This document shows, one piece after another, positions 12,568 to 29,026 of a stretch of DNA of 34,051 bases (positions within the stretch are counted from its first letter, which is position 1; each line of letters starts with the position of its first letter). The position numbers were made by a program, and so were the translations under genes. A model generated the notes under the pieces. That model was not told the DNA's origin. It did not search any database and saw only the letters and a list, made by a program, of their open reading frames with translations. Source of the DNA: Thiobacillus sp. (GTDB lineage Bacteria; Pseudomonadota; Gammaproteobacteria; Burkholderiales; Thiobacillaceae); NCBI GenBank assembly GCA_016124745.1, contig WGNC01000036.1, positions 1 to 34,051 on the forward strand, written 5' to 3'.

Positions 12568-13833
12568 CTAGGCCGTCGCTGGTATGCGTCGTATGGTGCG
12601 CTCATTGTCGCCAAGCGCGACGACCAGCAGAGCTGCGATAACGGCCAGACCGATGGATGCGGTCCATAGTACGCCATAGCCCCCGCTCCAGTCGAAGACG
12701 GCGCCGCCGGCCCAGGCGCCGGCCGCTCCGCCGACCGCATGGCCAGCCGAAAGCAGACCCATTGAGAGACCGAGCACCCTGATCCCCAGCCGGCTGGCCA
12801 GATAGCTCGCGGTGACGGGAACGGTGGAATAGTCGAAGAGCCCAAATACGATCGCGAAGATGATGAGCAAGGGATAGTTGTCGGCGACGAACAGCAGTAG
12901 GAAGAAGGCGCCCGCGCGAGCCGTGTAGATGAACGCCAGGAGCAACGGCCGATGCACGCGGTCGGACAGCCATCCGGCGGCAATCATTCCGGCGAGGTTC
13001 AAGGCTGAGAGGACGCCATAGGCGGCCGCGCTTGGAACCGGGCCGAAGCCGCACAGCGACGCATATGGCATGAGGTGAGTCTCGATGACGCCGCTCGTCG
13101 TGAAGCCGCAGATTGTGTAGCTCCAGAATATGGCGTGGAAGACCGGACTACGCAGTAGCGTGCCGAGGTCGCTGCGAAGGCCCTTGCGGCCATCGGCCTC
13201 GCCATGAAGTTGGTCGCCGGCTGTCGACGTCGGTCCGCGGGAGCTCAGCGCTCGCCATGTCACCGGTATGAGCAGGAAGCAGGCCAATGCGAGCAGCAGG
13301 AAGGGCGTGCGCCATTCCCCGCTTTGCATGAAGAACGCAAGGACCGGCATCAGCAGGAGCTGCCCGGCGGTCGACCCGGCGGTGCCGATCCCGACAGCCA
13401 GGCCACGGTTCTGCTCGACTCTCTGCGCAATCGCGGCCGCGACAACATGCTGGGCGATTGTGCCGAAGCCGATGGCACCGATTCCGGCGAAGCCGATCGG
13501 CAGCAGCCAAGCCGTGACGCCTGGTTGGGCAATCGCGACGAGCGCGACGCCGAGGCCGATCGCGGCGAGCCCGAAAATCAGGAGCGGCCGAGAGCCGCGA
13601 CGATCGACCAGTCCTCCGGCGAAGGGCGCCACGACCGCCATGACGAGCAGTGCCACGGCAGCGATCCCGGAAATGAATCCGCGAGACCAGCCGAATTCAG
13701 ATTGCCACACCGGCATGGCCAGCGACAGCGAGCCGCGCACCGTGAATGCCAAGGCAAGCGTCATGAACCCCAGAGCGACGACGCCCCAAGCGCCTGCGCC
13801 GTTCTTCGGGTTTATGGCAGCGTGTTTGCTCAT
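12568..13833 (-). CDS. Major facilitator superfamily transporter
   Basis: This is a roughly 421-residue integral membrane protein with about twelve hydrophobic segments. The signature loop between segments 2 and 3 is GGLVDRRGSRPLLI, and its second-half counterpart is AGWLSDRVHRPLLL. The N-terminus is short and cytoplasmic (MSKHAAINPKNGAGAW). I prefer the ATG at 13833; a TTG two codons upstream is possible. The gene follows the ArsR gene, with the start lying 9 bp past the ArsR stop, so the two are surely cotranscribed. Substrate is unknown; oxalate/formate-type and YbfB-like MFS proteins share the general look. The ArsR regulator probably controls it in response to its substrate or to redox state. 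Confidence 0.92.
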   Translation of the reverse strand: MSKHAAINPKNGAGAWGVVALGFMTLALAFTVRGSLSLAMPVWQSEFGWSRGFISGIAAVALLVMAVVAPFAGGLVDRRGSRPLLIFGLAAIGLGVALVAIAQPGVTAWLLPIGFAGIGAIGFGTIAQHVVAAAIAQRVEQNRGLAVGIGTAGSTAGQLLLMPVLAFFMQSGEWRTPFLLLALACFLLIPVTWRALSSRGPTSTAGDQLHGEADGRKGLRSDLGTLLRSPVFHAIFWSYTICGFTTSGVIETHLMPYASLCGFGPVPSAAAYGVLSALNLAGMIAAGWLSDRVHRPLLLAFIYTARAGAFFLLLFVADNYPLLIIFAIVFGLFDYSTVPVTASYLASRLGIRVLGLSMGLLSAGHAVGGAAGAWAGGAVFDWSGGYGVLWTASIGLAVIAALLVVALGDNERTIRRIPATA

Positions 13834-13842
13834 GGCCAACGA

Positions 13843-18275: not shown

Positions 18276-18665
18276 GTGGATGATGAGACCTATGTTCGCC
18301 GCCGTCGCTGGAGTGTGGAGGAGAAGCGCGCGGTCGTGGGCGAGGCGCTGTCGAGCGGGAACGTGATCGCGACGGCGAAGCGGCATGGCATCCAGGCGCA
18401 GCAGATCTACCGATGGCGCGAGCGGCTCGATGAGCGGCAAAGTCCGACGGCGTTTCTGCCGGTGTCGATTGCGCCGGATTCTGTGTCGCCCCGTCCAGCA
18501 CCGGTGCTGGATCAGGGCATCCAGGACCCCAGTCCAGCAGTGATGCTGGATCGTTCGCCGCGCGTTGAGATCGTGTTGTCCGCCGGTCGGCGCATCATCG
18601 CCGAGGGCAACGTCGATATCGATGTGATGCTCAGGTTGGCGCGCGGCCTCGAGGCGCTCAGGTGA
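18276..18665 (+). CDS. tnpA: IS66 family accessory protein TnpA
   Basis: A 129-residue protein with an N-terminal helix-turn-helix: [37 protein letters not shown] variable middle and a C-terminal [18 protein letters not shown] follow. This is the standard IS66 first ORF. Its role is accessory to transposition, probably DNA binding. Its stop overlaps the start of tnpB (GTGA), so the two are translationally coupled. Confidence 0.92.
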
Positions 18666-19009
18666 TCCCGGTTCCCGTCGGCGTGAAGGTGTGGCTCGCG
18701 ACCGGCCACACCGATATGAGGAAGGGGTTCGCCTCGCTGGCGCTGGTGGCGCAGGAGGTCTTGAAGCGCGATCCGCTCGGTGGTCACATCTTCTGCTTCC
18801 GCGGGCGTCGCGGCGATCTTTTGAAGGTGATCTGGCACGACGGGCAGGCGGCGAGCCTCTACGTGCGCCGGCTGGAGAAGGGCCGCTTTCTGTGGCCGTC
18901 GCCGGCCGACGGTGTCGTTGCGATCACGCCCGCGCAGATGGGGTACCTGCTCTCCGGCATCGACTGGCGCAACCCGGTGGAGACTTGGCGTCCAACTGCG
19001 ATCGGATAG
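18662..19009 (+). CDS. tnpB: IS66 family accessory protein TnpB
   Basis: This 115-residue protein starts at a GTG overlapping the tnpA stop. Diagnostic segments are [40 protein letters not shown] and [10 protein letters not shown], all hallmarks of IS66 Orf2/TnpB. It is required for efficient transposition of IS66 elements. Its biochemical role is not settled. Confidence 0.95.
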
Positions 19010-19054
19010 AGCTTTGCGCCTTGTTTTTGCCGGCCGATGTGATTCCCTCTCCTT

Positions 19055-20710
19055 GTGAGCGCGCCCGCTGAATCGCCCCTGTCGCCGACTCTGCCGACCG
19101 ATCTTTCGGCGGCGCATGCGATGATCCTGGCGGAGCGCCAGGCGAGGATCGAGGCGCAAGCCGAAGCTCTTGCGGCGAAGGCTGCAGCGTCATCGACCGA
19201 GGTGACGATCGCGCATCTCAAGCTGATGATCGAGAAGCTCAAGCGAGAGCTCTATGGCCGGCGCTCCGAGCGCACGGCGCGGTTGATCGACCAGATGGAG
19301 CTCCAGCTCGCGGAGTTGGAGGAGGCCGCTACGGAAGACGAGATCGCGGCGGAGGCAACGGCGCGCCAGGCGTCGCTGCCCGCTCCGGCCCTGCGCCGCC
19401 GTCCTGTCCGCAAGCCCTTCCCGGAGCATCTGCCGCGCGAGCGGGTCGTGATCGCAGCACCGACGTCGTGCCCGTGCTGCGGCTCGATGAAGCTGTCGAA
19501 GCTGGGCGAGGACGTGACGGAGACCCTGGAGGTCGTGCCGCGGTCCTGGAAGGTGATCCAGACTGTGCGGGAGAAGTTCACGTGCCGCGCTTGCGAGACG
19601 ATCACACAGCCGCCGGCGCCCTATCATGTGACGCCGCGCGGCTTCGTGGGGGCGAACCTGCTGGCCATGGTGCTGTTCGAGAAGTTCGGACAGCACCAGC
19701 CGCTCAACCGCCAGAGCGAGCGCTACGGCCGCGAGGGTATCGATCTCTCGGTCTCGACGCTCGCCGACCAGGTCGGCGCGGTGACTGTGGCGCTGGCGCC
19801 ATTGCATGACATGATCGCCCGGCACGTCATGGCGGCGCAGAGGCTGCACGCCGACGACACGACGGTGCCGATCCTGGCCAAGGGCACGACCGACACGGGC
19901 CGGATCTGGACCTATGTCCGCGACGACAGGCCCTTCGGTGGCGCCGATCCGCCGGCGGCGCTCTACTTCGCCTCGCGCGACCGGCGGCAAGAGCATCCGG
20001 ACGCGCACCTCGCGGCTTGGAGCGGCATCCTGCAGGCCGACGCCTATGGCGGTTACAACGGGCTGTACGATCCCGCGCGTCCGGGCGGGCCGGTCACGTC
20101 GGCGCTCTGTTGGTCGCATGCCCGCCGGGGCTTCTTCGAACTTGCCGACATCGCGGCGAGTGCGCGGCGCAGGCCCGGCGCCGCACCCGTGTCACCGATC
20201 GCGCTGGAGGCCGTGAAGCGCATCGACGTGCTCTTCGCCATCGAGCGTGAGATCAACGGTCTGAGCGCCGACGAGCGCCGCCAGATCCGGCAAGAGCGCA
20301 GCCAGCCGCTCGTCGACGACCTGCACGTCTGGCTCGGCGAGCAGCGCGTCAAACTCTCGCGCTCGGCGACCGTCGCCAAGCCGATCGACTACATGCTCAG
20401 GCGCTGGGGCGGCTTCGCCGCCTTCCTCGACGACGGGCGGGCCTGCCTGTCGAACAACGCCGCCGAGCGAGCACTCAGAGGTTTTGCGCTCGGTCGAAAA
20501 GCCTGGCTGTTCGCGGGTTCCAGCCGCGGCGCCGAGCGGACCGCCGACATGGCGACGCTGATCCAGACTGCGAAGATGAACGACGTCGATCCACAGGCTT
20601 GGCTCGCCGACGTTCTGGCCCGCATCGCAGGATTACCCCAGCGCCGGCTCGACGAGCTACTGCCGTGGAACTGGCGCACCGACGGCGCCGACCGCCGTAG
20701 AGCAGCCTGA
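19055..20710 (+). CDS. tnpC: IS66 family transposase TnpC
   Basis: This 551-residue DDE transposase starts at a GTG. Residues 45-95 form a coiled-coil/leucine-zipper-like helix (HLKLMIEKLKRELYGRRSER). A zinc finger uses Cys139, Cys142, Cys177 and Cys180. The catalytic core shows Asp268 (LHADDTTVP), Asp329 (LQADAYGGY) and Glu471 (SNNAAERALRGFALGRKAW). Length and motif order are those of intact family members, and there is no frameshift. It cuts and pastes the element through the terminal repeats. Some minus-strand frames inside it are long but are shadows. Confidence 0.96.
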   Translation: MSAPAESPLSPTLPTDLSAAHAMILAERQARIEAQAEALAAKAAASSTEVTIAHLKLMIEKLKRELYGRRSERTARLIDQMELQLAELEEAATEDEIAAEATARQASLPAPALRRRPVRKPFPEHLPRERVVIAAPTSCPCCGSMKLSKLGEDVTETLEVVPRSWKVIQTVREKFTCRACETITQPPAPYHVTPRGFVGANLLAMVLFEKFGQHQPLNRQSERYGREGIDLSVSTLADQVGAVTVALAPLHDMIARHVMAAQRLHADDTTVPILAKGTTDTGRIWTYVRDDRPFGGADPPAALYFASRDRRQEHPDAHLAAWSGILQADAYGGYNGLYDPARPGGPVTSALCWSHARRGFFELADIAASARRRPGAAPVSPIALEAVKRIDVLFAIEREINGLSADERRQIRQERSQPLVDDLHVWLGEQRVKLSRSATVAKPIDYMLRRWGGFAAFLDDGRACLSNNAAERALRGFALGRKAWLFAGSSRGAERTADMATLIQTAKMNDVDPQAWLADVLARIAGLPQRRLDELLPWNWRTDGADRRRAA

Positions 20711-20749
20711 TCAAAAGCACCCCAGGACCGATCCCGCATAGCCGCCAGT

Positions 20750-20773
20750 CCGCGGCCCACGCCGGACGCTTAC
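20750..20773 (-). repeat. IS66 right terminal inverted repeat
   Basis: Read inward on the minus strand it begins GTAAGCGTCCGGCGTGGGCC. It pairs with the left end at 18173. Confidence 0.88.
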
Positions 20774-20781
20774 CCTTGAAC
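20774..20781. repeat. IS66 target-site duplication, right copy
   Basis: CCTTGAAC, identical to 18165-18172, immediately outside the right inverted repeat. Confidence 0.93.
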
Positions 20782-20923
20782 AGTTCGCCCCAGCGATAGT
20801 CGACACCGTCCTCGAGCCCGGCACAGCCCTCGGCGTCCGCGCCCGGTTGGCAGCCAGGCGACTTTGTTGTTGCGCGAGGAATGACGGCGCAGCCGGCAGG
20901 GGAAGAAAGTCGATCGGCACCAT
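20774..20923 (-). pseudogene. 5' part of the ORF interrupted by IS66
   Basis: Fifty codons from an ATG at 20923 (MVPIDFLPLPAAPSF) run in frame to the target duplication and, with the element removed, continue into 17952-18164. The first part overlaps the dispersed repeat (copy B), which is not conserved as protein in copy A. The real start may therefore lie elsewhere. Confidence 0.4.
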
Positions 20924-20998
20924 TGCGGCATAGGCGATCGAGGCGCAGCCGTCCTTCGGCCAGATCAGTCCATTAAAGAGGCCGTTTTGGAGCGGTCA
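20862..20998. repeat. Dispersed backbone repeat, copy B
   Basis: This matches 333-468 in the same orientation with scattered substitutions and small indels. In copy A the segment leads into a DUF736 gene. Here no DUF736 gene follows, so this is a detached fragment of backbone. Confidence 0.75.
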
Positions 20999-21345
20999 GC
21001 CAGACAGAGTCCAGTCGAGTGGAACTGGCAATCATATGCCCCGATCAGGCACCGGACACAGGTTCAGGGCGCTATCGTCACACAGCCCACGCAGGGTTTG
21101 TCACCGCCGCGCGCAATTTGCCACGCTGGAAGCGTGAACTTCGTGGAACGCGCCATCAATGGCAAAAAGCATCGTCGACATGACTGCATGACCCGCTTAC
21201 GTCCGACAGACTCTTTTTTTGCCAATCGATGAGTCGCCAGGCGAGCGACAGACAATTCCACGGTGGTCGCTGATCCCACCAGTGTGTGGATCGAACTCGC
21301 TTCGATCACGTCAGTCGGCTTGCTCCAGATTGCCGCATGCGGCGT
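20999..21345. other. Intergenic stretch between backbone repeat and HxlR gene
   Basis: I see no supported gene or terminator here. Open frames on both strands are short and lack ribosome binding sites. Confidence 0.4.
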
Positions 21346-21777
21346 TTAAACATCATCGTGCGCGATATCGATTCCAACGTTCATTTCGTGAAAGCGTTGG
21401 CGTGCCGCCTTAATATCCGCGTGGCTGCGCTCGGCCCACCCGATCAAAGCTGCCAGTGGGCTCAGCATCGATTGCCCCAATGGCGCTAGACGGTACTGAA
21501 CGGCGGGTGGTTTCGTCGGGAACACCTGACGCGTGATAATCCCGTCTTCCTCCAGATTGCGGAGCGTCTGCGTAAGCGATCGCTTTGAAATGTCAGGGAC
21601 GTCCCGCAATAACTCAGCAAACCGCCGCGGCCGCTCGGCTAGAGCCATTATAAGCAAGGCGCTCCATTTTTCGCCGAGGCGGTCAAGCACATCCCGGACA
21701 GGGCACTGCGATTGAACGACGGGCATGGCAGCCCACCGTTTGAAGCTCTTGATAACCTCTTCATTTTCGCTCTGCAT
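21346..21777 (-). CDS. HxlR family regulator (QorR/YtfH-like)
   Basis: I use the ATG at 21777 (143 residues, [10 protein letters not shown]). A TTG at 21804 lies over the TATAAT box on the minus strand and so is likely upstream of the transcript. The winged helix spans about 25-100: [68 protein letters not shown]. Cys25 occupies the position of the redox-sensing cysteine of YodB, HypR and QorR, so thiol modification by quinones or electrophiles may be the signal. Related regulators sit beside qorB in other bacteria, and an intact qorB-like gene is 3.4 kb away. Related sites lie at its own promoter and before qorB. Confidence 0.9.
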
Positions 21778-21796
21778 CCGACAATTCCCAAGACCA

Positions 21797-21819
21797 AGTC
21801 TCAATTATATACCATGTCT
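21797..21819. promoter_or_regulatory. HxlR promoter with candidate operator
   Basis: This 23-bp segment matches 25196-25218 upstream of qorB at 18 positions (AGTCTC..., ...ACCATGTCT). It contains ATTATA at 21804-21809, the TATAAT -10 box of the minus-strand HxlR gene. A bound protein would block transcription, fitting autorepression. Confidence 0.65.
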
Positions 21820-21994
21820 GAAGAGTCTCCAACATCTAACGGGGCGCAATGATGAGCAGCTGAGGTTTGCGTGATTCCCGTCAGGGACAGTCCGCGGGCG
21901 GCTGAGCAACCCAGCCGACGTTTTAGCTTCGTCCGTCGCCAATGCGTGCTCCGCCAACGTGGCATGCGGCGTTCTCGGTATGCGGTGCAGCCGA

Positions 21995-22147
21995 CGTTAC
22001 CAAGGGCAAAAAAACTGCCTCCTTCCTAACCCTCTAAAGTCTCTATATGAGACCTTGTTACAAAGAAAGACAAGAGAGGAGGCTCTGATGGACGAGAGAG
22101 CCAAACTGTTCGTAACCGGCACCGCGGGCGGGTTCGCCGCGCGCTAG
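21995..22147 (+). pseudogene. Duplicated qorB promoter and 19-codon qorB stub
   Basis: This segment is similar to 25150-25300: a shared GTTACC, AAACTGCCT.CTTCC, GTCTCTATATGAGACC and a start codon. The stub at 22088 reads MDERAKLFVTGTAGGFAAR then stop, against MDETATLLVTGAAGRLGAL in the intact gene. It keeps a ribosome binding site (GAGGAGG). It therefore now forms a short translated leader ahead of the Tm-1-like gene. Duplication by insertion of the Tm-1 module is inferred. Confidence 0.75.
22038..22054. promoter_or_regulatory. HxlR-type box ahead of the Tm-1 operon
   Basis: A perfect inverted repeat GTCTC-TATAT-GAGAC lies at 22039-22053, identical to the one at 25197-25211 before qorB. It is about 155 bp upstream of the Tm-1-like start. 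Confidence 0.7.
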
Positions 22148-22209
22148 CCTGCGTATGGGGCACATTCAGCGCTCCAGCCATCGAATGCCCTTCTCAACGG
22201 GAGCTGCTA

Positions 22210-23529
22210 ATGTCCGTATCAAAAGAATTCAATGGGGGAAATCGTAAGCCAGAGACTTTGGTGCATGCAGCGCCGCCAGCGGTGGCCGTACTTGGTAGTT
22301 TCGACACAAAAGGCGGCGAATTGAGATATCTGTGTCACCGGCTGAAGACTGCGGGGGTTGACGTAATAACCATCGACTTTGGCGTATATGGTCCTGCAAT
22401 TGACCATATAGATTTCCCAGCCGCGCACGTAGCCAGCGCTGGAGGCGCCGACCTATCCGACCTCAGAATATCCGGTGATCGAGGATCTGCCCTTTCCGTG
22501 ATGGCTAGCGGAACCGCTGAGATCCTGCGGCTGTTGATGAAGGAACGACGCATCCGGGGGGCAGTTTCGCTGGGAGGCGGCGGTGGAACAAATGTTGCCA
22601 GTAAAGCGATGCAGAGCCTTCCGATCGGCTTTCCAAAGCTCATTGTCTCGACGGTCGCAAGCGGAAACGTCCGGCCATACGTCCAGGAGACTGATCTTAC
22701 ATTGATGTATTCGGTCTTGGATGTTGCCGGTTTGAACCGCATCACCCGCGCCGTTTTAAATAATGCCGCGAGTGCCATCGCGGGCATGGCTTCGCAAGTA
22801 AGCGTTGGTGCTGATGAGCCAACGCGCGCCCCTTCTGTTGCACTCACCGCTTTTGGCGTGACGTCCAAAGGAGCGACGGCGGCACGCCGCCGCCTGGAGG
22901 AGCACGGCTTCGAGGTGCTGGTCTTCCATGCGACGGGCTCAGGCGGCCTCTCCCTGGAGAAGCTCCTCAGAGCGGGTTTCTTCTCTGGTGTGTTCGACCT
23001 CACCACTACCGAGTTGGCTGACGATCTGGTGGGCGGCGTGATGTCGGCGGGGCCAGATCGATTGACCGCAGCTGCCGAGGTAGGAGTGCCGCAAGTCGTA
23101 TCACTCGGAGCGCTGGACATGGTCAACCTTGGACCGCTTGCCGATGTCGCTCCAGAATTTCGCGCGCGCAGACTCATCCGCCACAACGACATGATGACCC
23201 TAATGAGAACTACGGCAGCGGAGAACTCAGAGTTGGGAAGCCGGATGGCTGCAAAATTGAACGTCAGCACGGGACCTGCCGCAATTTTCATTCCATTGAA
23301 AGGGGTTTCTTCCGTCGCCATCGCGGGAGAGCCTTTTTTTGATCCGGAGGCGGATCAGGCGCTCTTCGCTGCGATCCGAAATGGACTCGGGCCGAACGTC
23401 AAACTCGTTGAACGTGACGTTGATATCAACAACACCGATTTTGTGATCGAGGCTGCCGACGAATTGGCGGCAATGATTGCAAGGCTCCCCAATCTGGAAG
23501 AGATCGAACATGACTATGAAAAAAAGTGA
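22210..23529 (+). CDS. Tm-1-like ATP-binding domain protein (UPF0261)
   Basis: This 439-residue protein matches the UPF0261/Tm-1-like family. It shows VAVLGSFDTKGGELRYLCHR near 28-47, AVSLGGGGGTNVASKAMQSL about 118-137, IVSTVASGNVRPYV about 146-159 and a second Rossmann-like half beginning ALTAFGVTSKGATAARR. Conserved RARRLIRHNDMMTLMRTT lies around 318-335. The tomato resistance protein Tm-1 has this domain, with an ATP site, as its N-terminal part. The bacterial role is unknown; links to aromatic or carbohydrate catabolism have been proposed. The ribosome binding site is GGGAG. It overlaps the TIM-barrel gene by 20 bp. It lies behind the HxlR-type box and the qorB stub. Confidence 0.92.
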   Translation: MSVSKEFNGGNRKPETLVHAAPPAVAVLGSFDTKGGELRYLCHRLKTAGVDVITIDFGVYGPAIDHIDFPAAHVASAGGADLSDLRISGDRGSALSVMASGTAEILRLLMKERRIRGAVSLGGGGGTNVASKAMQSLPIGFPKLIVSTVASGNVRPYVQETDLTLMYSVLDVAGLNRITRAVLNNAASAIAGMASQVSVGADEPTRAPSVALTAFGVTSKGATAARRRLEEHGFEVLVFHATGSGGLSLEKLLRAGFFSGVFDLTTTELADDLVGGVMSAGPDRLTAAAEVGVPQVVSLGALDMVNLGPLADVAPEFRARRLIRHNDMMTLMRTTAAENSELGSRMAAKLNVSTGPAAIFIPLKGVSSVAIAGEPFFDPEADQALFAAIRNGLGPNVKLVERDVDINNTDFVIEAADELAAMIARLPNLEEIEHDYEKK

Positions 23530-24343
23530 CATTTTGCGGCGTTTCTCCGAGCAGTTGAAAGCAGGACAAAGGCTTATTGGAGCTGGCGCAGGAACGGGCC
23601 TGTCGGGAAAAGCAGCACTGGCCGGAGGGGCGGACTTTCTGGTCGTCTACAATTCTGGGCGATACCGAATGGCCGGCCGGGGATCGCTGGCCGGCCTTCT
23701 TGCCTATGGCGATGCGAACGCGATCGTGTTGGAAATGGCTCGGGAAATCATTCCCGTTACGAAGGGAGCGCCGGTATTTGCAGGCGTCAACGGAACCGAT
23801 CCCTTTCGCCTAATGCCGCAGTTTCTGGCCGAGTTGAAGGCGGCGGGATATTGTGGTGTGCAGAATTTTCCAACTGTGGGCGTTTTCGACGGAGACTTCC
23901 GGGCGAACCTTGAGACGACAGGCGCCTCGTATGGACTCGAGGTAGACATGATAAGGGAAGCAGTCGGACTTGACATGGTCGCAGCACCCTACGTGTTCAA
24001 CGAAGATGAAGCTGTCGCAATGACAAACGAAGGCCAAGCCGACATTCTCGTTGCACATTTGGGCTTGACTACGTCAGGTTCAATCGGAGCCACTGAGGCT
24101 TTCGCACTAGACGAAGCGCTAGTAAAAATTCAGAGTATCGTTGATATTGTTCGGAAGTCACGAAAAGAGGCTTTGATCCTCGCTCATGGCGGTCCGATTG
24201 CCACGTCCGAGGATTGGCAATACATATTGACTCGGACAGAAGGCCTCGATGGCTTCCTGGGGGCATCTAGCATGGAGCGCCTTCCAGTCGAAGAAGCGAT
24301 CAAGACGACACTTTCGAAGTTCAAAGCTGTGAGCAAGTCTTAA
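23510..24343 (+). CDS. TIM-barrel protein, PEP hydrolase-like family (Tm-1 C-terminal domain homologue)
   Basis: I chose the ATG at 23510, preceded by GGAAGAG and overlapping the Tm-1-like gene; the in-frame ATG at 23477 lies inside that gene. The 277-residue product reads IGAGAGTGLSGKAALAGGAD near 23-42, LVVYNSGRYRMAGRGSLAGL about 44-63, VFAGVNGTDPF about 89-99, GVQNFPTVGVFDG and LAHGGPIAT about 225-233. These are marks of the 'phosphoenolpyruvate hydrolase-like' TIM-barrel family that forms the C-terminal half of plant Tm-1. Overlap with the upstream gene indicates coupled, roughly equimolar synthesis, so the two probably form a complex. The reaction is not established. Confidence 0.9.
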   Translation: MTMKKSDILRRFSEQLKAGQRLIGAGAGTGLSGKAALAGGADFLVVYNSGRYRMAGRGSLAGLLAYGDANAIVLEMAREIIPVTKGAPVFAGVNGTDPFRLMPQFLAELKAAGYCGVQNFPTVGVFDGDFRANLETTGASYGLEVDMIREAVGLDMVAAPYVFNEDEAVAMTNEGQADILVAHLGLTTSGSIGATEAFALDEALVKIQSIVDIVRKSRKEALILAHGGPIATSEDWQYILTRTEGLDGFLGASSMERLPVEEAIKTTLSKFKAVSKS

Positions 24344-24730
24344 ATCCAAGCGCCAGTGCCAACTGCGCCGCGCTTGCACACCCTCCCATTTTACAGATAG
24401 GGCGCTGGAGTGGCGCACCGTAATAAGCTCCACAAGAATTCCGATTGAACGATGTCGATCTGAAATGGGATCATGACCGATTTCGTACATCAGAAATGGA
24501 ACTGGTTTAACACGCTTCGACGTACATCGAGGCCTTCGCAATACCCGATTTCTTCGGTGCGAATGCTCTTCAGACGAAGTGGTGCCAGCAATCCCGCTAC
24601 TTCGAGAAAGCGGCGAGCGAGCCGGACGAACCGCTCTGATTTCGCTAGGCTCAACGAACTTCGTGCGCGACACCGCGCATTCGGATCTGGCCAAGCTAAT
24701 GTACTCGGCACACACCGGACGCAGCATGAG
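24344..24730. other. Degenerate stretch, probable IS debris
   Basis: No intact gene is supported. Minus-strand frames change repeatedly (for example a short GLDVRRSVLNQFHF). This may be the decayed 3' half of the IS3-type orfB relic to its right, but the resemblance is weak. Confidence 0.35.
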
Positions 24731-25010
24731 GAGCGTCGCGGCGCGCCCGTAAAGCCTGCGCCTGCATCAGCAGCTCGATCCGATGCAGGCCGCAATTGAC
24801 GCCGTCTGCAAGCACGTCATGCCAGACACGGCGAGCGCCGTAAGTGCGGTCAAAGCCGATGAAGCTCGCCCACACCTTCGCGCCGATGTCTTCGTCATCT
24901 TGAGAACGCTTGCTCGGCTTCCGGTTGAGCGAGGCATGGAAGCTGGATCGGGAGATAAGCGTCGCAGAAGGCCATCCCTGCCACGGGAGGCTGGTTAGTA
25001 GAGTGGCGTT
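24730..25010 (-). pseudogene. IS3-family transposase OrfB fragment
   Basis: The minus-strand frame contains SRSSFHASLNRKPSKRSQDD, then GAKVWASFIGFDRTYGARRV, WHDVLADGVNCGLHRIELLM and QAQALRAR. This is the helix-turn-helix region preceding the integrase core in IS3 OrfB. The N-terminus before SRSSFHA is diverged. The DDE catalytic domain after RAR is missing or scrambled. No terminal repeats were found. It lies between the TIM-barrel gene and the restored qorB promoter, consistent with the Tm-1 module having arrived with an IS. Confidence 0.75.
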
Positions 25011-25195
25011 ATCTTGGGGCCCGCTCACTTAGCTCTTCAATGTTAACGAGCGGCTGTGACGGCTGGGCCATCGGGGGTTCGGCTGAAATTCCGTCGCTAG
25101 GCTATAGCGCATTCACCCGTCGGGGCATGCGCGCGAGATAGGCGCAACTGAAGTTACCTGGTGCAAAGAAACTGCCTTCTTCCAAAGTTCTCGAA

Positions 25196-25218
25196 AGTCT
25201 CTATATGAGACCATGTCT
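25196..25218. promoter_or_regulatory. HxlR-type box ahead of qorB
   Basis: GTCTC-TATAT-GAGAC at 25197-25211, continuing CATGTCT. It resembles the HxlR promoter site at 18 of 23 positions and shares its core with 22039-22053. It ends about 27 bp upstream of the qorB start. Confidence 0.75.
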
Positions 25219-25245
25219 TATACAGAGGCTTATAGGAGACCTTCA

Positions 25246-26142
25246 ATGGACGAGACAGCCACACTGCTCGTTACCGGTGCCGCGGGCCGGTTGGGCGCGC
25301 TGGTGTGTAGGGCGTTGTCGTCGGCGGGTCGCCGGAACGTCGTCGCCGCATCACGGTCGCCCGAGAGACTTACGGATCTCCGTGTTAAGGGCATAGAAGT
25401 CCGACGAGCCGACTTCGACGATAGTGCGTCACTCGAAGTGGCGTTTGAGGGCATCGATAGAGCGCTCATCATCTCGACCGACGCTCTGTCGGTTCCAGGT
25501 CAGCGCAAACGCCAGCACCGGACGGCACTGGAGGCAGCAATAAGAAGCGGTGTGAAGCACGTCGCTTATACCTCGATGCCGAATGCGGAATTCAGTTCGG
25601 CAATCCCCTTCGCGCAAGATCATCAAGACATGGAGGCCGCGCTGCGGGAAAGCGGGCTTGGCTACTCCGTGCTGCGCAATAGCTGGTACCAGGAGAACTT
25701 ACTCGCCTATCTGCCCAATATTCTCCGTTCAGGCATTTGGTTCACGGCCGCTGGCGATGGGCGCATCGCATACGTATCGCGCGCAGACGCAGCAGATGCC
25801 GCGGCCAAGGTGCTCGCGTTTGGTCATGGGTCTGAGGTCGTTGAAGTCGCAGGCCCAGAAGCGCTTACAGTTGAGGAAATCGCCGTCATCATACGCGAGG
25901 TTCTCGGGCTCTCGATCCGTGTCGAACATGTTTCGCAGGAACGCCTCGCCGTGGAATTGGCGCGCCAGGGTGCGCTGCCAGAGGTCATCCCCATGGTGTT
26001 AGGTACCGAGGCGAACCAGCGAGCCGGCCACTTTGACGTTAACCATGATGCATTGTGCAATGTTTTGGGTCGCCCGGCGAAGGCCCTCGCTGATTTCTTC
26101 CGGACCGAAATGACCATGCTTCTCGCCCCGGTGCGGTCGTGA
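25246..26142 (+). CDS. qorB: QorB-like NAD(P)H:quinone oxidoreductase (NmrA/atypical SDR)
   Basis: The ATG at 25246 has TAGGAG ten bases upstream and gives 298 residues. The N-terminal NAD(P)-binding motif is VTGAAGRLGALV (9-20), followed by RRADFDDSASL about 58-68, HVAYTSMPNA and YSVLRNSWYQENL, typical of YtfG/QorB and NmrA-like atypical SDRs. There is no classical YxxxK. Two-electron reduction of quinones, avoiding semiquinone formation, is the known QorB role. An HxlR-type operator precedes it, and an HxlR gene is at 21346, matching the qorB/HxlR pairing in other bacteria. It is first in a likely operon with an old yellow enzyme and an NTF2-like protein. Confidence 0.88.
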   Translation: MDETATLLVTGAAGRLGALVCRALSSAGRRNVVAASRSPERLTDLRVKGIEVRRADFDDSASLEVAFEGIDRALIISTDALSVPGQRKRQHRTALEAAIRSGVKHVAYTSMPNAEFSSAIPFAQDHQDMEAALRESGLGYSVLRNSWYQENLLAYLPNILRSGIWFTAAGDGRIAYVSRADAADAAAKVLAFGHGSEVVEVAGPEALTVEEIAVIIREVLGLSIRVEHVSQERLAVELARQGALPEVIPMVLGTEANQRAGHFDVNHDALCNVLGRPAKALADFFRTEMTMLLAPVRS

Positions 26143-26226
26143 GACCGCCCATCTGACTCATCCGGTTTTCAAATTACCCACGACGGCCGCAGTGGCATTT
26201 CATCCCTTCAATCCGAGGCAAACAAC

Positions 26227-27327
26227 GTGACTGACATTCTCTTCACTCCCTTTACGATCAAGACTCTCACCGTCCCCAATCGAATCACAATGCCAGCCAT
26301 GACTCGCGGGTTCAGCCTTGGCGGCGTGCCAGGCCCGGACGTAGCGGCTTACTATGCGGCCCGTGTCGCCGGTGGCGTTGGCCTCATTATCAGCGAGGCC
26401 GTCGCGGTAGAGCGCGCGGCGGCAGCTGAGGTCCTCGGCATTCCCGTGTTTTATGATCCCTTGGCCCAGACCGGCTGGAAACGGGTCATCGAAGGCGTCC
26501 ATGCTCTCGGCGGTCGCATCGCCGCGCAGCTTCATCATGCGGGCGCTCTACGTGATCCAGAAACCATGAATGCACCGGACACGCCGAACGACGAACCTGA
26601 CACGATGTCAGAAGAGGACATCGCTGACACGATCTCGGCATTCGCCAAATCAGCGGCCACGGCCAAGTCGCTCGGTTTCGATGCGGTGGAGGTGCACGGC
26701 GCCAACGGCAACCTGATTGATCAATTTCTCTGGGAAGGGCGCAACACGCGGACGGACCGCTGGGGTGGTAGCCTTGTTGCCCGCACGCATTTTGCCGTCG
26801 AGGTGCTGCGCGCGGTCCGTGCGCAGGTGGGGCCTGACTTTCCTGTATTTTTCCGCCTCTCTCAATTCAAGCAGGGGGCTTATGAGGCCAAGATCGCACA
26901 GGATCCGGCCGAGCTAGAGAAGATCCTCGGCCTCCTATCGGACGCGGGTAGCGACGCTTTCCACGCGTCGCAACGTCGATTCTGGGAACCTGCTTTCCCA
27001 GACTCACCGCTCAATTTGGCGGGATGGGCTAAGCGTCTGACCGGGAAGCCATCGATCACTGTCGGATCCGTCGGGCTGAACGGGCCGGACATCACCGACT
27101 TGTTGACGGGCAAAGGCGGCAACGCCGGACCGGCTGGGCTGGACGAACTTCGCTCTCGCGTTGAGGCGGCTGAATTCGATCTGGTCTCCGTCGGTCGCGC
27201 ACTTCTAACGGATCCGGCCTGGCCGAACAAGGTTCGCGACGGTCGGCTAAAGGATCTCTGTGGTTTCGACCTCACGTCCTTGGGCAGTTTGGTGACTGAA
27301 GCTCCCCACCCGCCGCATGTTGTGTAA
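26227..27327 (+). CDS. Old yellow enzyme family alkene reductase (NADH:flavin oxidoreductase)
   Basis: The start is a GTG at 26227, giving 366 residues, the family's length. FMN-barrel landmarks are MPAMTRGFS (22-30), AAQLHHAG (99-106), the substrate-anchoring pair His157/Asn160 in EVHGANGNLIDQFLWEGRNT, TDRWGGS, and LVSVGRALLTDP near the C-terminus. Old yellow enzymes use FMN and NAD(P)H to reduce activated C=C bonds, nitro groups and quinones. It follows qorB by 84 bp and is followed 28 bp later by an NTF2-like gene, so a detoxification operon under the HxlR box is likely. The usual HGAHGYL is changed to HGANGNL, a common variant. Confidence 0.92.
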   Translation: MTDILFTPFTIKTLTVPNRITMPAMTRGFSLGGVPGPDVAAYYAARVAGGVGLIISEAVAVERAAAAEVLGIPVFYDPLAQTGWKRVIEGVHALGGRIAAQLHHAGALRDPETMNAPDTPNDEPDTMSEEDIADTISAFAKSAATAKSLGFDAVEVHGANGNLIDQFLWEGRNTRTDRWGGSLVARTHFAVEVLRAVRAQVGPDFPVFFRLSQFKQGAYEAKIAQDPAELEKILGLLSDAGSDAFHASQRRFWEPAFPDSPLNLAGWAKRLTGKPSITVGSVGLNGPDITDLLTGKGGNAGPAGLDELRSRVEAAEFDLVSVGRALLTDPAWPNKVRDGRLKDLCGFDLTSLGSLVTEAPHPPHVV

Positions 27328-27355
27328 CTCAACGAACATCACAATGGAGGACCAA

Positions 27356-27727
27356 ATGAATGTCCAACCCCATCGCCATCCCTTTATCGATGACCTCGCC
27401 GAAGATGTCGTTTTACTATCGTCGATCTTGCGTCGGCCTTTGTCAGGCCGTGCCCAGGTCCTCAAGGCGGTGAAGGCAGGCGGCAGCCTTTATGCCAACC
27501 AGACGCAGAAATTCCTCGGCAGCATCGAGGGGCGCACCTTCTTCGAATACGAAGTCGATCTTGCCGACGAGAAAAAAACAACTGGCCTCGTCTCAATTGA
27601 TCGTAATGAAAAAGGCGAGGTAACACATCTGAATATTACCTTCAGTCCGCTCGGATCGGTCCTGAGCCTCGCAACCGGTGTCAGGGACATACTCGCTGCC
27701 GATTTCGATAGTAGCCTCTTCATCTAG
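27356..27727 (+). CDS. NTF2/SnoaL-like small protein
   Basis: The ATG at 27356 follows GGAGG by five bases. The 123-residue protein has the alpha+beta pattern of SnoaL/NTF2-like folds: FIDDLAEDVVLLSSILRRPL, GRAQVLKAVKAGG, then strands RTFFEYEVDL, GLVSIDRNEKGEVTHLNITF. The family includes ketosteroid isomerase-like enzymes and non-catalytic ligand-binding proteins. It is the third gene of the qorB-OYE unit. Catalytic residues cannot be assigned. Confidence 0.8.
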   Translation: MNVQPHRHPFIDDLAEDVVLLSSILRRPLSGRAQVLKAVKAGGSLYANQTQKFLGSIEGRTFFEYEVDLADEKKTTGLVSIDRNEKGEVTHLNITFSPLGSVLSLATGVRDILAADFDSSLFI

Positions 27728-27746
27728 GCGTGGAGGAAAGATTGCA

Positions 27747-27797
27747 ATGAAGGCAGTTCAGCTCGTCGCCGTCTTGGCGGCGAGCAAAGCTTCATGA
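27747..27797 (+). pseudogene. N-terminal stub of a zinc-type dehydrogenase
   Basis: A strong GGAGGAAAG ribosome binding site and an ATG at 27747 begin MKAVQLVAVLAASKAS, followed by a stop. MKAVQLV is a very common start of MDR alcohol dehydrogenases/quinone reductases. The rest is missing, so the operon appears to have been cut here. The identification rests on only a few residues. Confidence 0.5.
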
Positions 27798-27922
27798 AAG
27801 CCCAGCCACGCTTCTAGTGGTCGAGGGTTTGAGCGGTACGTTCCAATCAAGGGGTGATCCACGCCGACGGTCGGAACGGCGAACAGCTATATGCCGGTTG
27901 TGACAGGCTGCGGGCGAGAATC
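27798..27922. other. Junction sequence
   Basis: This short stretch lies between the cut operon and the palindrome. It has open frames but nothing recognisable. Confidence 0.35.
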
Positions 27923-27977
27923 CAGGGCAACGAGTCCAGGTTGAGAAAGCCTTTCTCAACCTGGACTCGTTGCCCTG
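27923..27977. repeat. 55-bp near-perfect palindrome
   Basis: Two 27-bp arms (27923-27949 and 27951-27977) are exact reverse complements, separated by a single C. It abuts the stop codon of the broken membrane-protein copy, i.e. the inner edge of the right direct repeat. As RNA it would fold into a very stable hairpin; as DNA it could be a cruciform or a recombination scar. Confidence 0.9.
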
Positions 27978-27979
27978 TG

Positions 27980-28414
27980 CTAGGCCCGGGTCATGTCTTG
28001 CTCGGACGATCCAAGCGCGGCCATTCCAATCACGCGCACGAATGCGATGATGCCAACGAGGACCGCGCCGACGATGGAAAAGGTGAACTGCCAGCCTTCC
28101 GAAGGCATGGTGTGTTTTCACGATGCCATGTGTGGCGTGACAGCCCGCGATGGCCGCAGGCGCGACGAAGGCCGCCGCGATCGCGAGTCTCAGCCATATC
28201 GTGCGAAACGAGCGCGAGGAGGGCTTGGCCGAGGCCGAGCGTGAGCGCGGCAGCGACAAGACCGACGAGGATCGCGCCGAGCAAGCCGGCGCCATATGCC
28301 CAGGCCCCGGCGGTCGCGCCTGCAAAAGCCGGCAAAGCGAATACGGCCAGGGTGAACGGGAGCCAGCATAATCCGCCTGGTGGCGATGCTGAAAAGGACG
28401 CCAAGAAACATCAC
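27980..28414 (-). pseudogene. Frameshifted copy of the four-helix membrane protein
   Basis: Segments in successive frames match the intact protein at 778-1221: a short MFLGVLFSIA, then GGLCWLPFTLAVFALPAFAG, WLRLAIAAAFVAPAAIAGCH, and MPSEGWQFTFSIVGAVLVGI. The frame changes near 28365. There is a one-base insertion in a TT near 28212 (before RTIWLRL), and another in an A-run near 28117 (GIVK-HTMPSEGW). At least three frameshifts show that the copy is dead, unless sequencing errors are involved. Confidence 0.82.
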
Positions 28415-28555
28415 AATGGTGGTTTCCGTGAGAAAGGTCTGACGGTTGCGCCTCGACCACCACCACGGCGCATCGCTAGTATAGCCGAAGAGAAGGCGGG
28501 ACGGGAGCGGAAATCCAGCAGGATTCCGCTAGCGAGCCTGACGCCAGGCCCGCGG

Positions 28556-28723
28556 TCAGCGGGCGAAGGGGTCGATCTCGTGAATGATGGCAGCGAAGTC
28601 GCCATCATACTCGCCGGCAGGCATGACGCCGACCGTGCCGTCGCCGGCCTGGAAGATGACGATCGAGACCATGAGGGTGGTGGCGAGGCTGAAGGCGAAG
28701 GCATGAGCTTGATTGAGGGACAT
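28556..28723 (-). CDS. Small conserved backbone protein, 55 aa (second copy)
   Basis: It starts at the ATG at 28723 (MSLNQAHAFAFSLATTLMVS) and ends DPFAR. It is nearly identical to the copy at 1359-1526; differences are mostly conservative (for example VSIVIF for AAIIIF). The frame is intact although its downstream partner is broken. GGAG lies upstream. Function is unknown. Confidence 0.7.
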   Translation of the reverse strand: MSLNQAHAFAFSLATTLMVSIVIFQAGDGTVGVMPAGEYDGDFAAIIHEIDPFAR

Positions 28724-29026
28724 GTGACCGGCTCCTGTCTTGGAGGCGGGAGACCATCTCCCGCGCGACAGGCGCCCGATGTGTCCGGCCGATGGCCGCA
28801 ATCACCGTGGAGGCAAAGCCGCAGCGGCGGCATGCGTGCATAGCCGACCCTTTACGGGTTGATGGCGTCAGGCCCTCGGCTGGACCAAGGATCAGCGCAT
28901 TTGGAAGCGGGGGATAGTGTCTCGCTTTGACCGGGTGCTAGGATTGTCCTTCAAGAGTTGCACTGCGTTGGATTCGAGCCGTGCGCTGGTCGTCCGCGTC
29001 GGAAGGCAGTAGGACGCGAGCGAGCG

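Follow-up and report, generated by a model that had tools for sequence, protein, structure and literature searches.

Introduction

Among the closest described relatives of the regulator considered here are HxlR, HypR (YybR) and YodB of Bacillus subtilis and QsrR, which belong to the same family by sequence and likewise carry an N-terminal Cys residue. HypR, YodB and QsrR are thiol or quinone sensors, and the targets and operators of all four regulators differ from those of the locus presented here. For B. subtilis HxlR, one report describes activation by formaldehyde via a Cys-Lys crosslink in helix 1 (PMC7835342). In Escherichia coli K-12, qorB diverges from the HxlR-family gene ytfH, an arrangement with one promoter only and no Tm-1 operon. 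Divergent hxlR-nmrA pairs are also found on plasmids of Shinella, Sinorhizobium, Sphingopyxis, Azospirillum and Paraburkholderia as well as Rhizobium, Bosea, Salipiger and Lichenicola. The second component, composed of UPF0261 and TIM-barrel parts, is known from tomato Tm-1 and the plant Tm-1L proteins (PMC5028733); the parts are fused in plants and encoded by two genes in our locus, and the virus-inhibiting role of plant Tm-1 says nothing about the bacterial pair. Here we analyse a contig of Thiobacillus sp. (WGNC01000036.1; 34,051 bases, the whole contig being referred to as the window), on which a YtfH-like hxlR gene, qorB and a UPF0261/TIM-barrel operon are found together with a second copy of the qorB promoter region.

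A second qorB operator-promoter at the Thiobacillus locus

We find a YtfH/QorB-type stress module, comprising hxlR, qorB and a gene for an old yellow enzyme (OYE), in which the qorB operator-promoter is present twice. Comparison of the window with itself by blastn aligns 21984-22142 with 25141-25300 (75.2% of 161 columns identical, E 6.6e-22), and when 21995-22160 was used to query the complete genome, only this stretch and 25153-25300 (76%) were returned and no third copy. Both copies contain GTCTCTATATGAGAC, at 22039-22053 and 25197-25211. The original prediction that the qorB promoter and first codons occur twice and that GTCTC-TATAT-GAGAC is kept in both copies is thus borne out. As it also stated, a Tm-1-like gene, a TIM-barrel gene and an IS3-type relic lie between the copies, their identities being confirmed by the domains PF06792 plus PF23189, PF09370 and HTH_21. 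Judged from sequence, the Tm-1 operon very likely lies behind an operator-promoter of the YtfH-like HxlR type, and we consider it probable that HxlR controls this operon through the operator-like site O2. The individual parts are each known; a UPF0261/TIM-barrel pair behind a second HxlR-qorB operator-promoter was absent from the literature searched, which was covered mostly as titles and abstracts. The gene order is IS66, hxlR (minus strand), qorB stub with promoter, UPF0261, PF09370 TIM-barrel, IS3 relic, intact qorB and OYE, with the following features:

18276-20710, IS66
21346-21777, minus strand, hxlR, YtfH-like MarR/DUF24 regulator (PF01638, E 4e-24; start ATG at 21777)
21804-21831, minus strand, promoter-like TGGAGA-16-TATAAT of hxlR (consensus scan, 10/12 matches)
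21796-21815, plus strand, O1, degenerate operator AAGTCTCAATTATATACCAT over the hxlR -10 (score 23.8 with a matrix from foreign loci, third in the window)
21984-22142, plus strand, second copy of the qorB promoter with leader and first codons (stub; 75.2% of 161 columns to 25141-25300)
22016-22024, plus strand, box A TGCCTCCTT of the stub promoter
22039-22053, plus strand, O2, operator-like GTCTC-TATAT-GAGAC of the stub promoter (matrix score 30.2)
22088-22147, plus strand, truncated qorB stub open reading frame, 19 codons (AGGAGG at 22077-22082)
22210-23529, plus strand, UPF0261/Tm-1-like gene (PF06792 and PF23189; tomato Tm-1 3wry, E 1e-79)
23510-24343, plus strand, PF09370 TIM-barrel gene, phosphoenolpyruvate hydrolase-like (E 4e-112; 20-base overlap with the UPF0261 gene)
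24734-24955, minus strand, IS3 transposase relic, HTH_21 region (E 3e-10; similarity to plasmid IS3)
25141-25245, plus strand, intact qorB promoter and leader (box A at 25173-25181)
25197-25211, plus strand, O3, operator-like GTCTC-TATAT-GAGAC of qorB (matrix score 30.8, best in the window)
25246-26142, plus strand, qorB, NmrA/SDR, NAD(P)H:quinone oxidoreductase-like (PF13460, PF05368; best PDB chain E. coli YtfG/QorB 2zcu, E 3e-47)
26227-27327, plus strand, old yellow enzyme-like flavin oxidoreductase, next gene after qorB (PF00724, E 8e-53)

The similarity between the copies stops near qorB codon 18. While intact qorB starts at 25246, the stub open reading frame encodes 19 codons (MDERAKLFVTGTAGGFAAR) followed by a stop, and among its first 17 codons nine are changed relative to qorB, seven of them nonsynonymously, which fits a loss of protein constraint in one copy. 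Remnants of the missing qorB body were sought in five stretches on both strands, none of which beats the best of 60 shuffles. The stub peptide scores equally with the window QorB and with the relative P0121 (49 each), the next of the 121 sequences compared scoring 36. Among plasmid DNA we found no relative of the qorB promoter copy and, for the stub copy, two matches at E 0.5.

The divergence of the copies is unevenly distributed. Box A and the palindrome are identical in 34/36 columns and the remainder in 74/112 (p 0.00047, in a single comparison of two sequences); the operator block is identical in 19/19 columns, and the leader between operator and stub open reading frame in 18/38. This pattern favours selection on the regulatory part after loss of the gene. 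The alternative that the stub is a decaying relic, its operator being kept by inertia and the Tm-1 operon being silent or transcribed from another, unrecognised promoter, we regard as unlikely. It would account for the mostly nonsynonymous codon changes (7/9), for the diverged leader and for our finding no consensus promoter, but neither for the preferential conservation of the boxes and the unchanged operator block nor for the nearly unchanged spacing of box A and palindrome, which differs by a single base (24 versus 25).

How the second copy arose is a separate question. The copies differ in 25% of columns, which rules out a recent tandem duplication; a sister locus could be an alternative source of the second copy. 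According to this history, possible but less likely than not, two related hxlR-qorB loci were joined by mobile-DNA recombination with no tandem duplication, the stub being the original partner of the hxlR gene at 21346 and the intact qorB-OYE genes stemming from the sister locus. It agrees with the 25% divergence, with IS66 and IS3 sequences close by and with the gene arrangement, in which hxlR diverges from the stub and intact qorB, 3.2 kb further on, has no adjoining hxlR. Similarity of the upstream flanks is not claimed, their score being equalled in 36/500 shuffles, and this also suits recombination. Against it, each copy has the other as its nearest relative: the two align at a score of 153, whereas the best of 29 foreign divergent loci, taken with about 150 bases starting at the NmrA match, reaches 58 with the stub and 97 with the qorB copy. 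Recombination would alter the history and leave the regulation the same, and it is compatible with control of the Tm-1 operon by HxlR. The IS3 element is present as a fragment with transposase homology: 24734-24955 is 69-73% identical to plasmid IS3 transposase genes in the 10 matches listed of 40, of which six are annotated as IS3 transposase or unannotated. Of seven inverted-repeat pairs of at least 16 bases in the window, none frames 22148-25140.

The predicted operator recurs at foreign hxlR-qorB loci

We compared 44 foreign HxlR loci, of which five came from one relative search, 13 were hand-picked from plasmids and 26 came from another search. In 151 genomes of the family of genome G806, HxlR relatives at E 1e-42 were confined to one locus, L088, which was kept out of these counts. 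An NmrA/QorB-like gene diverges from hxlR in 29/44 loci. Box A (TGCCTyCTT) is found in the intergenic region of 26/29 divergent loci and ahead of hxlR in 4/15 others (p 4.5e-5); the palindrome is present in 18/29 divergent loci and in 0/15 other HxlR loci (p 4.6e-5), 16 sites being of the strict form [GC]TCTC-N5-GAGACC and two of the Paraburkholderia form GTCTCTATGATAGACC. The operator-like palindrome of the original prediction is supported by its presence at many foreign hxlR-qorB loci. The same trend is seen in the 26 loci that were not hand-picked, 18 of them divergent, with box A in 15/18 versus 2/8 and the palindrome in 12/18 versus 0/8.

From the 18 foreign palindrome sites we derived a weight matrix containing no window sequence. 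Its score exceeds 18 in 22/29 divergent loci and 1/15 others, and never did so in 100 rounds of shuffled intergenic sequences. Scanning both strands of the whole window places 25195 first (30.8), 22037 second (30.2) and 21796 third (23.8), followed by the reverse strands of these three sites, the first unrelated place scoring 10.5; none of 200 random versions of the window reaches 23.7. In the complete draft genome (3,345,709 bases, 3.35 Mb), the strict palindrome GTCTCNNNNNGAGACC occurs twice, exactly at the two copies, and the reversed control has 0 matches. Both window copies thus hold the box A and palindrome shared by hxlR-qorB modules.

Loci differ in the distance from box A to the palindrome: it is 24 bases at the stub and 25 at qorB, whereas Paraburkholderia has 26 and the remaining fifteen loci with both elements have 40-44. 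The plasmid-borne hxlR-nmrA pairs resemble our locus in having divergent genes and box A in 11/11 cases, and the palindrome is present in six (L012, L013, L017, L019, L020, L023) and was not met in L014-L016, L018 and L024. They differ in being single copy, in having the hxlR ATG near box A and in the gap, which is 40-44 bases in most and 26 in Paraburkholderia, compared to 24-25 in the window. The 88-base intergenic region of E. coli K-12 contains neither TGCCTyCTT nor GTCTC-N5-GAGAC; by eye it has TACTTACT-AAA-AGTAAGT instead.

These data lead us to predict an operator code, TGCCTyCTT plus GTCTC-N5-GAGACC, for one branch of proteobacterial HxlR-QorB modules, which would offer a testable operator for many uncharacterised modules of this type. 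This putative rule appears undescribed as far as the literature searched goes: publications on ytfH/qorB operators and HxlR-NmrA regulation, including PMC3946193 and PMC7835342 in their accessible parts and with subscription papers thinly covered, yielded nothing on this operator.

Two variations were observed among HxlR loci. Box A also precedes hxlR genes having no divergent NmrA relative (L021, L022, L049, L050), so that it may be an hxlR-side element or more widespread among HxlR loci than the palindrome. At L047, L044, L050 and L011, HxlR loci lacking NmrA, a related but different palindrome is found (e.g. AGTCTATTTTTGTGACC; scores 16.7-19.0), pointing tentatively to drift of the operator among family members.

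Promoters, leader and the site at hxlR

The promoter layout was resolved by eye, not by tool prediction, in the window, P. hospita, L019 and L023. The stub promoter has a -35-like TTCCTA at 22023-22028 and a -10-like TATGAG at 22046-22051, and the qorB promoter a -35-like TTCCAA at 25180-25185 and a -10-like TATGAG at 25204-25209. The -35-like element lies at the end of box A and reads TTTACA in the long-spaced relatives L019 and L023 and TTCCNN in the window and P. hospita; the -10-like element (GATAAG, TATGAG or TATGAT) follows, by eye, after 17-18 bases. In the window TATGAG is located inside the palindrome, and in L019 and L023 the palindrome comes after the -10; either placement would suit a repressor.

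A scan of 21750-22300 reported no terminator and no plus-strand promoter-like site. It also missed the stub promoter itself and so leaves room for another promoter. No terminator was found between stub and Tm-1 gene, and a terminator-like site called at 25197 is the operator itself. Of the original prediction that the operon is under HxlR control, the part resting on sequence holds, i.e. an operator-like palindrome shared with qorB directly before the pair and no terminator found in between. The short translated leader it proposed is possible: AGGAGG lies five bases ahead of the stub ATG, which makes translation of the 19 codons plausible. Scanning 20700-27800 against Rfam for an RNA leader gave no match.

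The third site, O1 (AAGTCTCAATTATATACC at 21796), lies on the hxlR -10 of TGGAGA-16-TATAAT and predicts autoregulation of hxlR. Since 21804 is the last base of this predicted -10, ATG 21777 is a more likely hxlR start than TTG 21804. All three HxlR sites anticipated earlier hold as predictions, being the top three of the matrix scan, with the reservation that hxlR's own site is degenerate.

Several observations weigh against HxlR control of the Tm-1 operon. Neither copy gave a plus-strand match to a consensus sigma-70 promoter in the promoter scan, and TTCCTA-17-TATGAG is a weak, by-eye call. There are 62 bases between the stub stop and the UPF0261 ATG, and the hxlR ATG is 238 bases from the stub box A, compared to 7-86 in ten annotated relatives, so that the arrangement on the stub side departs from the usual one. 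The matrix, although trained on foreign loci, was obtained via a regular expression inspired by the sites in the window itself; seven of the 29 divergent loci score below 18 and one non-divergent locus scores above (L047, 19.0). Finally, the box limits in the conservation test were set after viewing the alignments, and a quarter of the columns (25%) differs between the copies.

The regulator and a model for co-induction

The HxlR protein contains a winged helix domain (PF01638, 84.6 bits versus a cut-off of 20.8), and its best PDB chain is 1yyv (E 9e-22), followed by YybR (HypR), HxlR and others including YodB and QsrR. In an alignment of the window protein with 120 listed of 945 relatives, the N-terminal Cys25 and Lys37 are invariant in 121/121 sequences. 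With 1yyv and 2zcu as the best solved relatives and the divergence of qorB and ytfH in E. coli, the gene names hxlR and qorB given in the original prediction are apt.

In our preferred model, the recognition site of HxlR, presumably a winged helix dimer, is most likely the palindrome GTCTC-N5-GAGAC; as the palindrome covers the -10-like region in both copies, binding would result in repression. Cys25 would be the target of a thiol-reactive compound that relieves repression, resulting in joint induction of qorB-OYE and the Tm-1/TIM-barrel operon, with the stub promoter reading through into the Tm-1 gene, and hxlR itself would be induced as well via the degenerate third site on its own -10. Co-induction with QorB and OYE would point to a role of the UPF0261/TIM-barrel pair in handling carbonyl, quinone or aromatic compounds. 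The locus may provide a readable example of how copying of an operator-promoter puts an operon under a resident regulator, and a testable regulatory handle on UPF0261/TIM-barrel pairs. More tentatively, and on balance doubtfully, the promoter duplication might act as a plug-in port by which the pair was recruited into an electrophile/aromatic detoxification regulon: a mobile HxlR-QorB module would bring along an extra operator-promoter as a docking site for metabolic operons, and co-induction would replace the frequent ABC-transporter/GntR setting of the pair.

The UPF0261/TIM-barrel pair in other genomes

Both UPF0261 halves (PF06792, PF23189) and the adjoining PF09370 gene are present in the window, and pairs of this kind also occur in further bacteria and in archaea. 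Among 30 other UPF0261 loci (L003 and 29 from one relative search), a PF09370 gene adjoins in 26, being downstream as in the window in 25; none of the 26 pairs is fused in the plant-like manner. The genes also adjoin in all eight annotated plasmid contexts, where ABC transporter genes accompany them in 5/8. An HxlR-type site within 600 bases upstream of UPF0261 was found in 0/30 loci (best matrix score 8.3), suggesting that an HxlR-type operator before the pair is peculiar to our locus among those examined. In the eight plasmid stretches we found no HxlR or QorB relative at E 1e-3, and the best matrix score was 14.9, inside L085. The UPF0261 protein had no match on viral contigs. The literature on the pair, available mainly as titles and beginnings of abstracts (PMC5028733 included), turned up no bacterial function.

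A GntR regulator gene lies within 5 kb of the pair in 4/8 of the plasmid contexts, raising the alternative that HxlR controls qorB and itself only and that a regulator supplied in trans, GntR-like as in some relatives, controls the Tm-1 operon. We judge this improbable: the 27 window proteins scanned include no GntR regulator, and the sole transporter recognised among the window proteins is encoded by an MFS gene at 12568-13836, more than 8 kb away from the pair.

Longer UPF0261 frames were noted elsewhere. In L087 (3945-6197), UPF0261 lies in a long frame whose product is annotated as an ABC transporter protein, which suggests fusion to a transporter part, and open frames of 742-821 amino acids contain UPF0261 in L052, L055, L056, L059, L061, L064, L066, L067, L070, L072 and L079.

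Origin of the contig and further features

The other 116 genomes of the family contain no UPF0261 or QorB protein match at E 1e-40, and QorB has no match at E 1e-60 in the other 299 genomes drawn from the order, so the region looks foreign to the host's relatives. Such gaps, a draft assembly in 48 contigs and 2.57% contamination could also reflect an assembly chimera. We consider this very improbable, as three proteins have close relatives on one same-sized contig in another assembly: the relatives of HxlR (94%), UPF0261 (93%) and QorB (97%) all lie on a contig 21,272 bases long, which holds P0002, P0121 and P0241. This is the only contig size common to all three lists (ten further sizes are common to the HxlR and QorB matches), and the other assembly very probably holds the same gene set. 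Overall, the contig looks like foreign, transposon-rich, mobile DNA; its ends share no exact overlap of 20-300 bases that would indicate circularity.

Additional repeats were observed. A direct repeat of about 840 bases (821-1648 and 28020-28846; 72% identity, E 2e-117) flanks about 26 kb of metabolic and regulatory genes, the frame of its right copy looking decayed. A shorter direct repeat (331-468 and 20861-20998; 140 columns, 87% identity) has one copy between IS66 and hxlR. At 27923-27977, two perfectly inverted 27-base arms enclose a single-base loop, representing either a strong hairpin or an assembly effect. At the contig end (29789-34035, minus strand), a DUF7146/Toprim/YAcAr protein and a protein with a Strawberry notch-type helicase C-terminal domain are encoded by genes resembling those of plasmids or integrative elements.

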